IMG/VR virus record: IMGVR_UViG_3300031722_000052 | Coordinates: 1 to 45,959 of that record | Source of the DNA: a virus | Strand: one strand, 5' to 3' | DNA length: 45,959 bases | In this document: positions 29,345-33,460 of the stretch, in pieces | Layout: each line of letters starts with the position of its first letter | Position numbering within the stretch: position 1 is the first letter of the stretch | Made by a program: the position numbers and the translations under genes | The notes under the pieces: model-generated | Database searches by the model: none | Told to the model about the DNA's origin: nothing | What the model saw: only the letters and a program-made list of their open reading frames with translations

Positions 29345-30221
29345 CGAGTAGTCCTTGCGGTTTTTCATAATCCGCAATAGGAGTAGGTCTATCATCTGTT
29401 AGATATCTCCATATTTCTCTATCCGTATGGTTCTTTGGGTCTTTGGTAGAAGTTATACTCTGCCATGGCAGCCCTATCATCTCTAATCTGGCGCATAGCT
29501 TCTGCGTTCCTTTTGAACCAGCTTTGTCTGGGTCTAGCCATATCCCAACCGGCTTGCCATTTGGCAGCCTGTGGTCTAACATCAGCATCAGCTTGTCGCC
29601 TAAGGACGTCCCTAGAATTGAGGCACTTGGTAGGAATTGTCCTACCCTTATGGCGCTCAATGCGTCCTCTGTTATTATCAGGCTGTACTGCGGGTCCGAG
29701 ATCATCCAGGATGATAAAGTCAGCGCACTTACCGATGATAGGAAAGGCCATGGCTTCGATTGCCTTATTAAATACTTCGGGCCTAAATCTTGGGCGAAAA
29801 GCTTCCGCAAGCATACCCCGGTCAAATCCCCCGATGCGTTCAGAATTGGGATCACGGCCCGGCGCAAGCTCTCGCTGTACCCTAGCTTGTACGTCTCTCT
29901 CAAAGTCTCGTTCACCCCTGCGGCCGAGTACCATAGGAGGGCACTTATGGAGATAAGGGACTTGTCGGAATATGCGGAACTGAAATCCATTGGCAAACTT
30001 GCAGATATCGTGGCTAAATTTAATGGCTTCGACAACTCTTGCAACGATATAAGCGATGTCCGGGCTTCCCACACCGTTTCCCCGCACCTGTGGCAGTATC
30101 CCCGCCATCCTTTCAGGGTTGCCTCTACGCTCATTGATGGGGTTGAGCCGCAATGTATGATCTTCTTTTTTCCACCAAGGGGCAAAGACTGGGCTACCGT
30201 AAGCCACTTTGGGCTCTGCAT
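29325..30221 (-). CDS. DNA primase (zinc-binding plus TOPRIM)
   Basis: A 298-aa protein. The N-terminus has a zinc-binding pattern, HCGSTPSMSV then GYCHRCG (residues about 23-47). The TOPRIM core follows: SLIITEDALSAIRVGQ, ASILGTSLG and GIWLDPDKAGSKG, with catalytic Glu and the DxD pair. AGGAG lies 7 nt before ATG. It makes primers for lagging-strand synthesis together with the helicase encoded next. The whole gene except its last 90 nt also lies within the downstream part of the kinase-like ORF in another frame. Confidence 0.9.
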   Translation of the reverse strand: MQSPKWLTVAQSLPLGGKKKIIHCGSTPSMSVEATLKGWRGYCHRCGETVWEARTSLISLQELSKPLNLATISASLPMDFSSAYSDKSLISISALLWYSAAGVNETLRETYKLGYSESLRRAVIPILNASGDLTGVCLRKLFAQDLGPKYLIRQSKPWPFLSSVSALTLSSWMISDPQYSLIITEDALSAIRVGQFLPSASILGTSLGDKLMLMLDHRLPNGKPVGIWLDPDKAGSKGTQKLCARLEMIGLPWQSITSTKDPKNHTDREIWRYLTDDRPTPIADYEKPQGLLDAGAAS

Positions 30222-30825
30222 TCTGTAGCTCCTGTAATAGGGCCTTGTCTTCTAAACGCTTCTTAAGAGTATCGCTGTCCACACGACCGATACCAAACTC
30301 TACGTTATAAGTATCTTCTCGAGACTGCACTGAGCAGTAAGGATCGGTAACAACTACTATGTCTCCTCGCATCATAATATTGCCGGGATGCAAGTCATTA
30401 TGTGGGGCAACTGTAGTCCATAGACGTAATAGTTCTGGATAAGTACTATTGTACTCACGCATGAGATCGTACTGCTCTCTAGCAGCGTCTGTAGGAGAGT
30501 CTTTATCATACAGGGTAAGTCGCTCTATCTCAGCTACATACATGTCTTGGAACAAGTGCAGGGAGTGCACCTTAAGCAGATGATCGTTATCATCCGTCTT
30601 ATTAACGAGACAGTAGGTAGCATAAACTACCCACCCGTCTCCTCTGCTCAAACCTGTCTTAAGAACCCTAGTTGGGTCCGTAGGGTGGTCGAACACAGCT
30701 CCATACATACCGGCTGCAATATACTTAAACCCGTAATTAACGAGACTTTTACATGAGGGCCTAGAGAAGTAAGAAACCCCTGCGTCTTTAATACTTGCTT
30801 TAAGTTGGTACAGAACTGCGCTCAT
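29419..30825 (-). CDS. Protein kinase-like protein with a long C-terminal read-through into the primase gene
   Basis: A 468-aa frame. Residues 1-200 look like a compact protein kinase: glycine-loop-like AAGMYGAVF (37-45), VLK with Lys56, HNDLHPGNIMM (142-152) as catalytic loop with Asp144 and Asn149, and VVTDPYC (Asp161) in the DFG place. T7 gp0.7 is a kinase with a related role in host take-over. The frame then stays open for another 266 codons over the primase gene; this tail is Arg-rich and has no recognisable domain. No stop codon lies near the primase start, so either the tail is really made, or one indel has removed a normal stop. The kinase call is firm, the tail is not. Confidence 0.7.
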   Translation of the reverse strand: MSAVLYQLKASIKDAGVSYFSRPSCKSLVNYGFKYIAAGMYGAVFDHPTDPTRVLKTGLSRGDGWVVYATYCLVNKTDDNDHLLKVHSLHLFQDMYVAEIERLTLYDKDSPTDAAREQYDLMREYNSTYPELLRLWTTVAPHNDLHPGNIMMRGDIVVVTDPYCSVQSREDTYNVEFGIGRVDSDTLKKRLEDKALLQELQNAEPKVAYGSPVFAPWWKKEDHTLRLNPINERRGNPERMAGILPQVRGNGVGSPDIAYIVARVVEAIKFSHDICKFANGFQFRIFRQVPYLHKCPPMVLGRRGERDFERDVQARVQRELAPGRDPNSERIGGFDRGMLAEAFRPRFRPEVFNKAIEAMAFPIIGKCADFIILDDLGPAVQPDNNRGRIERHKGRTIPTKCLNSRDVLRRQADADVRPQAAKWQAGWDMARPRQSWFKRNAEAMRQIRDDRAAMAEYNFYQRPKEPYG

Positions 30826-32636: not shown

Positions 32637-32727
32637 TATTGATACCGCGAGGCTGTGCCTGTTAGCACTTCACAGTCCTACATGATCCCTGAAAACAGTT
32701 AGGACGCACAGCCTCTCGATATCAATA
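32637..32727 (-). ncRNA. Structured RNA with 22-bp closing stem and probable pseudoknot
   Basis: Inverted repeats 32637-32658 and 32706-32727 pair over 22 positions with two mismatches. The 47-nt interior on the minus strand has a GTCCTA/TAGGAC hairpin whose loop CTGTT can pair with AACAG after it, an H-type pseudoknot. It lies between genes and not inside a good frame. There is no U-tract after the stem, so it is not a standard terminator. It could be an RNase III site or an independent RNA. Confidence 0.55.
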
Positions 32728-32729
32728 CG

Positions 32730-32860
32730 TATTACAAACATGCAGTACACGATTCGAACGTGTGTACCCTTACCTCTACTAGATGTAACAGACATCTATC
32801 TTGATCCGGGCTGTATCTGTGTCAACATTAAGCCTCTCAGTCAACTGCATGTTTGTAATA
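32730..32860 (-). ncRNA. tRNA-like RNA closed by a 17-bp perfect inverted repeat
   Basis: Inverted repeats 32730-32746 and 32844-32860 are perfect (17 bp). Inside, the minus strand has tRNA marks: acceptor ATGCAGT/ACTGCAT, a D-loop-like GAGAGGCTTAATG, and a perfect T-arm, ACACG-TTCGAAT-CGTGT, directly joined to the acceptor strand. The distance between D-arm and T-arm (58 nt) is too long and no normal anticodon arm forms; a TAGATGT/ACATCTA hairpin with a 5-nt loop is there instead. No CCA is encoded. So it is tRNA-like but not a standard decoding tRNA. No terminator U-tract follows. Confidence 0.6.
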
Positions 32861-32867
32861 GGTACGA

Positions 32868-32895
32868 CTAGCAGGCTCAACTAAGAACCTGCTAG
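32868..32895 (-). other. Intergenic hairpin CTAGCAGG/CCTGCTAG
   Basis: An 8-bp perfect stem with a 12-nt loop, 26 nt past the stop of the 179-aa gene and before the tRNA-like RNA. It lacks a U-tract. The same half-site CTAGCAG reappears in the hairpin at 37219-37252. Possible RNA-processing or mRNA 3'-end element. Confidence 0.5.
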
Positions 32896-32920
32896 CTTTA
32901 TGTAACTAGCCTAAGCTAGA

Positions 32921-33460
32921 TTATTCAGCGTCTTCGATCGTATCATCGACACGGTATACAGACGAGCCGATATAGGCATTCTTGTCGTCAAGCTTGGTAC
33001 GGGAAACATAATGCACCTTAGTGCCAGCTTCCTTTTCCTGCTTATTCTGCTGAGCAACAGCAGCCTGAATAACGCCCTGCAACTTCTTCTCGTCTGCGTT
33101 CTCGACGTCAGACAGGAGGATATCGAAGAATGCGTAACCAGTGACAGTCTTACCGTCTTCGGCAACAGTCGGAGCAACCAGATCAGCGAATGGGTACTTC
33201 GAACCGCTGCGACCACCACCGCCACCAAAGGCTACACGGGCAGGCAGAAGGCCAGCACCAATAGTCAGTGGCTTGTTGATCTTAATCTCAACGCGAGGTG
33301 CGCGCTTGGCCTTCTCAGCCGTATCAGCGACTTCGGCAGTAGCATCAGCTACGTTCTCAGCGGCAGTAGGTTCAGAGCCGACAACAGGAGCAGTGGTCGT
33401 GGTTTCGGTAGTACCAAGGCCGAGTTCGGCCAGCAATGCTTCGTCAGTAGTATCAGGCAT
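32921..33460 (-). CDS. Probably highly expressed early/middle protein of unknown function
   Basis: A 179-aa protein. The first 55 residues are a Thr/Ala/Glu-rich, likely disordered leader; the body has KINKPLTIGAGLLPARVAFGGGGGRSGSKYPFADLVAP, VTGYAFFDILLSDVENAD and a C-terminal VHYVSRTKLDDKNAYIGSSVYRV. The Gly-run followed by GRSGSKYPF is striking and may form a nucleic-acid or protein contact. G/C-ending codons are more frequent than around it, as in the capsid gene, which fits high expression; a promoter lies about 110 nt upstream, and a run of structured RNAs follows. I do not recognise a family. Confidence 0.72.
   Translation of the reverse strand: MPDTTDEALLAELGLGTTETTTTAPVVGSEPTAAENVADATAEVADTAEKAKRAPRVEIKINKPLTIGAGLLPARVAFGGGGGRSGSKYPFADLVAPTVAEDGKTVTGYAFFDILLSDVENADEKKLQGVIQAAVAQQNKQEKEAGTKVHYVSRTKLDDKNAYIGSSVYRVDDTIEDAE

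Follow-up and report, generated by a model that had tools for sequence, protein, structure and literature searches.

A family of phage-borne tRNA-like RNAs with a predicted pseudoknot instead of an anticodon arm

The tRNA genes of phages are usually accounted for by codon use or by the replacement of cleaved host tRNAs. The RNA family described here can be compared with several known systems. The closest is the class II tRNA-Ser, with which it shares a 7-bp acceptor, U8-G9, a 3-bp D-stem, a GAGNGG...AA D-loop, a UUCRAAU T-arm, a hairpin at the variable-arm position and, in some family members, an encoded NCCA. In contrast to tRNA-Ser, the family has no anticodon arm or loop, the strand at positions 27-32 is predicted to base-pair with that hairpin's loop, and a near-invariant UGAC follows the D-arm. 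tmRNA likewise has a tRNA-like end, a pseudoknot and no anticodon arm, but the family RNA is ca. 105 nt long, lacks a tag reading frame and has a D-stem. In plant-virus tRNA-like structures, the acceptor arm lies at the 3' end of the genome and is formed by a pseudoknot. Those of the TYMV/BMV type are virus-encoded tRNA mimics with a pseudoknot, as the present RNAs would be, whereas the phage family has a normal acceptor helix, its knot replaces the anticodon arm, and the viruses are dsDNA phages. The mascRNA/menRNA is a small RNA of tRNA-like shape that is produced by RNase P/Z and lacks a normal anticodon arm. The phage RNAs resemble it in size and in the missing arm, but mascRNA/menRNA is eukaryotic, its D- and anticodon arms are reduced, and it has no such pseudoknot.

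The window, meaning the whole 45,959-nt stretch of DNA that was analysed, is a virus record (IMGVR_UViG_3300031722_000052) of an Autographiviridae-like phage. Its nearest named relatives are the Rhizobium Cuernavacaviruses, whose DNA polymerases are ca. 66% identical to that of the window phage. Its genes include one for a T7-type RNA polymerase and one of the protein-kinase family, and the major genes are carried on the minus strand. The tRNA-like element (32730-32860, minus strand) is flanked on one side by the phrog_15747 gene (32921-33460) and on the other by a small gene that precedes an endolysin-like one. Its features are as follows:

32739-32850, minus strand: tRNA-like RNA core, from acceptor to discriminator (CM R1 match, 52.6 bits)
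32844-32860, minus strand: 5' arm of the 17-bp helix, made of a 10-nt extension (32851-32860) and the 7-nt 5' strand of the acceptor (32844-32850)
32730-32746, minus strand: 3' arm of the 17-bp helix, made of the 3' strand of the acceptor (32740-32746) and the extension (32730-32739)
32844-32850 with 32740-32746, minus strand: acceptor, ATGCAGT/ACTGCAT
32825-32841, minus strand: D-arm, class II (Ser-type) by its sequence, ACT-GAGAGGCTTAA-TGT, or as RNA ACU-GAGAGGCUUAA-UGU
32821-32824, minus strand: conserved UGAC, 3' of the D-arm and followed by the pseudoknot strand
32816-32820, minus strand: predicted 5' strand of the pseudoknot, ACAGA, extendable to ACAGAUA through a U-G and an A-U pair
32788-32792, minus strand: predicted 3' strand of the pseudoknot, UCUGU, in the 7-nt hairpin loop UCUGUUA
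32808-32811, minus strand: 5' strand of the outer hairpin helix, GCCC, partner GGGU (RNAfold; helix 3 of the family covaries)
32766-32769, minus strand: 3' strand of the outer hairpin helix, GGGU (RNAfold)
32793-32798, minus strand: 5' strand of the inner hairpin helix, UAGAUG, partner CAUCUA (RNAfold; helices 4 and 5 of the family covary)
32780-32785, minus strand: 3' strand of the inner hairpin helix, CAUCUA (RNAfold)
32747-32763, minus strand: T-arm, ACACG-UUCGAAU-CGUGU (helix 6 of the family is 98% paired, with both-side changes)
32728-32861, minus strand: cassette of ca. 134 bp between GTCGTAC and TATTGATA, missing from the same site in the related phage L086

A first-pass annotation of this DNA had described a tRNA-like RNA locked in a 17-bp perfect hairpin. 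The acceptor stem, Ser-type D-arm and T-arm that it placed on the minus strand are all present in the sequence, and the perfect pairing of the outer helix (32844-32860 with 32730-32746) is exactly 17 bp long, with 20 of 21 positions paired when it is followed further. The normal anticodon arm is indeed missing – the window element has no 7-nt anticodon loop with U33 – while the distance given between D-arm and T-arm, 58 nt, needs correction, the spacing from D-stem to T-stem being 61 nt. The outer helix is one of only two inverted repeats in the 46-kb window that are at least 14 nt long and have arms no more than 300 nt apart; the second is a short palindrome. Folding with RNAfold (181 nt), a check that had been proposed, gave -57.5 kcal/mol, 3.1 sd below shuffles (z = -3.1), with none of 200 shuffles equally stable. 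The inner hairpin loop and the strand after the D-arm form the predicted pseudoknot ACAGA/UCUGU, of 5 bp, or 7 counting the U-G pair. An intrinsic terminator was rejected, as the 17-bp helix is not followed by a U-run.

Using blastn, 36 nt of the D-arm region of the window were matched to Pseudomonas phage Psp6, where the same tRNA-like plan is found, and further members were recovered with degenerate patterns for the D-arm and T-loop. The pattern matches comprise ca. 50 phage sequences (45 distinct), including Psp6, the Xanthomonas phages FoX2 and FoX5 and many IMG/VR phages; many of the members are uncultured phage contigs. L007 was found by pattern search in a tRNA-Ser cluster, and L032-L034 are variant members from the viral pattern search. 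The D-arm and T-loop are conserved through this sampling by motif, while the acceptor, hairpin and knot pairs are free of such selection. Ca. 14 motif matches lack the structure and serve as natural negatives: L009, L010, L018, L019, L026, L027, L029, L031, L035, L042, L049, L050, L055 and L068 are chance matches with no convincing T-arm/acceptor structure. A CM search of 398 genomes scored few candidates per genome and missed even the positive genome; a sequence pattern was used in its place. This pattern was absent from ca. 780 sampled Pseudomonadota genomes except for the MAG that supplied L030, and the element therefore looks phage-borne.

Standard tools overlook these RNAs or call them wrongly. 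In the window, ARAGORN called no tRNA and nothing in Rfam 15 matched, not even with E allowed to rise to 1. When 12 member loci were scanned with Rfam 15, only ordinary tRNAs were matched and the member elements were not. Of the features of a canonical class II tRNA (RF00005), the 7-bp acceptor, D-arm and T-arm are present, and the Psp6 element scores 23.9 bits against the Rfam tRNA model, with a threshold of 29. Neither Rfam nor ARAGORN gave a tmRNA match with a tag peptide. The one resemblance to mascRNA/menRNA was weak (L045, 17.9 bits; threshold 42.5). An ordinary tRNA was rejected because neither ARAGORN nor Rfam returned one, and tmRNA or any other Rfam family because there was no match at gathering score. 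A search of the open-access literature, with many subscription journals outside its scope, found no paper on such an RNA. By these searches, this family of tRNA-shaped phage RNAs, with the codon-reading part replaced by a knotted hairpin, is previously undescribed. In FoX2 and FoX5 (L012 3040-3218; L013 1040-1218), ARAGORN places a tRNA-Ser(CGA) within the element. The records of these two phages list only a downstream tRNA-Leu, where ARAGORN calls a tRNA-Pro; the annotation there is unreliable.

The tabulated members have the same order of parts. The acceptor is followed by U8-G9, a 3-bp D-stem with its GAGNGG...AA loop, in most cases UGAC, and a pseudoknot strand of 4-7 nt; then come a short A-rich linker (UAGA, CAAGA or CAAAA), a long hairpin, the T-arm, and the acceptor again. 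In most cases the 3' side of the long hairpin carries an asymmetric bulge of 3 nt (NAU); the hairpin loop, 6-8 nt in most members, pairs with the pseudoknot strand. UGAC is invariant in 25 of the 25 rows of alignment A1 and near-invariant in the family. A 5-bp anticodon stem with a 7-nt loop (U33, anticodon) was found in neither the window nor the tabulated members. As judged from the sequences, the anticodon arm is lost save for its 5' strand (27-32), which is predicted to pair with the loop of the hairpin found where a variable arm would be; the resulting pseudoknot, likewise predicted, stands in for the anticodon arm, and an RNA folded in this way could not decode.

The architecture, the covariation, the phage distribution and the cassette behaviour of the element were all established by computation. 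The alignment was fitted to the nested helices, with the pseudoknot outside the model. In the 45 members, 90.4% of cells are paired, and the compensatory changes that the first-pass annotation had advised looking for are found across unrelated phages: 24 of the 26 pairs have changes on both sides. The covariation score of these members is 0.79, compared with 0.19 for shuffled and 0.09-0.13 for slid partners, and the D-stem pairs 10-26 and 12-24 covary across the family. For the pseudoknot, three comparisons agree in direction. With pairing restricted to the loop, the score for each member's own stem is 11.05 versus 7.64 (sd 0.42) when permuted, a difference of ca. 8 sd that 0 of 3000 permutations reached. 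A wider test was ca. 6 sd above permuted and never reached in 2000 permutations, and in a fixed register 67 of the 84 pairs form, versus 41 +/- 5. Pairs include CCAAGC/GCUUGG, GCAUC/GAUGC, GCAUA/UAUGC, CCAAC/GUUGG, CUCG/CGAG, CGUAUG/CAUACG and CUAUAGA/UCUAUAG.

CM R1, built from 25 other members with the window left out, matched the window with 52.6 bits (E = 8e-14). True tRNA-Ser genes score 48-50 bits, so the assignment of the window element depends on its pseudoknot and matching D-arm as well; the element is the lowest-scoring and most divergent member of the aligned set. It is very probable that this is a real conserved RNA family and that the window element belongs to it.

The long helix is real, but it is a variable extension and not a defining feature: at least five contiguous pairs beyond the 7-bp acceptor are found in 8 of the 44 members (permuted mean 0.46, maximum 4 in 5000), with 10 extra pairs in the window and 12 in L024. 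Most members have an ordinary 7-bp acceptor, in some followed by NCCA. N-CC lies directly 3' of the acceptor in 14 of the 36 members without an extension (chance 1 in 16), and NCCA is found in nine members of the whole set. Many members appear to have tRNA-like ends, and some a dsRNA-extended form. Members with the long helix would withstand RNase P/Z as long as no other nuclease opens the helix, and a helix of 17-21 bp in T7-like phages would suit RNase III. There is no uniform discriminator base (22 A, 10 C, 7 T and 5 G). The acceptor sequences have no common identity elements across phages, which leaves recognition by one specific synthetase unsupported.

All 36 phage records have a single high-scoring copy (36/36), including a 607-kb jumbo phage, and the carrier phages differ in terminase and replication families. 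No neighbouring protein gene common to the members was found, which favours a role as a free-standing RNA. In L007, L017 and L028 the element is inside or next to tRNA-Ser genes, and elsewhere it adjoins other tRNA genes, a placement that suggests tRNA-type expression. In L086, whose neighbouring protein is 81% identical, the upstream intergenic DNA is almost identical and the element is missing; Palo, N37 and L087-L089 also lack it in their syntenic gaps. Since it is missing at the same site in close relatives, it is an accessory cassette, of ca. 134 bp here. Relatives that keep the genes and not the structure, which the first-pass annotation had counted against its reading, do exist: the Cuernavacaviruses and L086 are both without the element. 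To judge by these genomes, the element is wholly present or wholly absent in relatives, and conservation is seen instead across unrelated phages.

The preferred reading, held tentatively and at a little under an even chance, is that the RNA acts in trans as a mimic of the tRNA shape, either as a decoy or as a Ser-tRNA-like substrate without decoding. The element would encode a stable tRNA-like RNA that does not decode and may have originated from a class II (Ser-type) tRNA that lost its anticodon arm. The elbow (D-loop/T-loop), the acceptor and often the CCA end would have been retained and would make maturation by host tRNA enzymes possible; the RNA would presumably be matured and carry a CCA end in vivo. 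In the window phage, the outer helix of 17-21 bp may aid excision. In trans, the RNA could occupy a host protein that reads the shape of a tRNA and not its anticodon, candidate targets being seryl-tRNA synthetase and defence or toxin enzymes directed at tRNA; a decoy for tRNA-cleaving host defences had been among the roles listed by the first-pass annotation, and it fits this reading. A mechanism as free RNA is the simplest in view of the absence of decoding, the retained elbow and acceptor, the frequent CCA, the lack of a partner gene, and the company of tRNA genes in some phages. The more specific proposal of a new class of phage ncRNA, an anticodon-less, pseudoknotted tRNA mimic that blocks or satisfies tRNA-directed host defence enzymes, is possible but rather doubtful.

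The seryl-tRNA synthetase (SerRS) does not read the anticodon – it uses the variable arm, elbow and acceptor. A putative alternative is that the RNA is a non-decoding seryl-tRNA-like substrate, charged by SerRS to give a Ser-RNA for non-ribosomal use or to lower the amount of free SerRS. The Ser-type D-arm with U8-G9, the hairpin at the variable-arm position, the members in or beside tRNA-Ser genes and the NCCA encoded in several members all point this way. However, the acceptors vary freely and the discriminators are mixed, unlike those of a host-matched tRNA-Ser, and no user enzyme adjoins the element; this alternative is considered unlikely.

A role in cis, proposed by the first-pass annotation, is decidedly unlikely. 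The element would be a processing signal at which RNase P/RNase Z, with RNase III acting on the 17-bp helix, cut the polycistronic mRNA between gene blocks. RNase III sites are used by T7-like phages, and the window phage has a protein of the T7-type kinase family; its element lies between genes of the same strand and beside another long hairpin, and some members are just before or after intrinsic-terminator-like hairpins. Yet a simple hairpin or a true tRNA would be sufficient for cutting, which does not need a conserved pseudoknot, there is one high-scoring copy per genome, and the element is absent at the same junction in relatives. The members inside tRNA gene clusters and the encoded CCA ends weaken the proposal further.

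It is very improbable that the element is a transposable or selfish cassette without a phage function, with the 17-bp arms as its terminal inverted repeats. Its precise presence or absence at one site would fit, as would the TATT that starts the inserted unit and recurs just after it, but the outer arms are unrelated in sequence and unequal in length between members and absent in most, and the internal helices covary, indicating selection on an RNA fold; the covariation largely refutes the cassette reading. A transposable element with fixed ends was rejected, as conserved end sequences were not found in independent copies. A decaying tRNA-Ser pseudogene, or the tRNA with an inserted, intron-like segment that had also been suggested, is scarcely credible: the acceptor, D- and T-arms are tRNA-like and Psp6 has its sub-threshold tRNA match (23.9 bits vs 29), but no tabulated member has a 5-bp/7-nt anticodon arm, and the middle is a specific pseudoknot, a non-tRNA core that is conserved and covaries in ca. 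45 members, so that covariation of the replaced region refutes both forms.

The family bears on what phage tRNA genes are for. A conserved, phage-borne tRNA shape that does not decode would mean that some phage tRNA-like genes serve something besides translation. If true, the counter-defence form of the trans-acting reading would describe an RNA that acts through its tRNA shape and is carried by phages of many lineages. The predicted pseudoknot where the anticodon arm would be is a new natural way to build a tRNA-like fold. Current tools miss or mis-call the members; a sequence and structure model is now defined for finding them and can be used for charging tests and for screens against tRNA-targeting defence systems.

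Several other features were observed. The tRNA-Ser clusters of L007 (10792-11398) and L028 (3510-4007) have four anticodons (TGA, GCT, CGA and GGA) with the element inside, an unusual concentration on one amino acid. In L036, L037, L041, L043, L044, L045, L053, L064, L065, L073 and L076, an intrinsic-terminator-like hairpin precedes the element, which begins only a few to ca. 15 nt beyond the U-run; in L025, L038 and L072 such a hairpin is found just downstream of the element instead. In the window, the region 29419-30825 (minus strand) encodes a protein matching the T7-type kinase family phrog_15752, annotated as a regulator of RNase III and RNase E. Immediately downstream of the tRNA-like element lies another long hairpin, TATTGATATCGAGAGGCTGTGC / GCACAGCCTCGCGGTATCAATA (32637-32727, minus strand), which is also found in the corresponding gap of L005, L006, L086, L087 and L088. 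Its base, TATTGATA.../...TATCAATA or near variants, is positionally conserved in the relatives, while the interior differs, and it resembles a swappable module or an RNase III site. Upstream of the element is a GC-rich hairpin, GCTAGCAGG...CCTGCTAG (32868-32896, minus strand), which is terminator-like without a U-run and is almost unchanged in L086.
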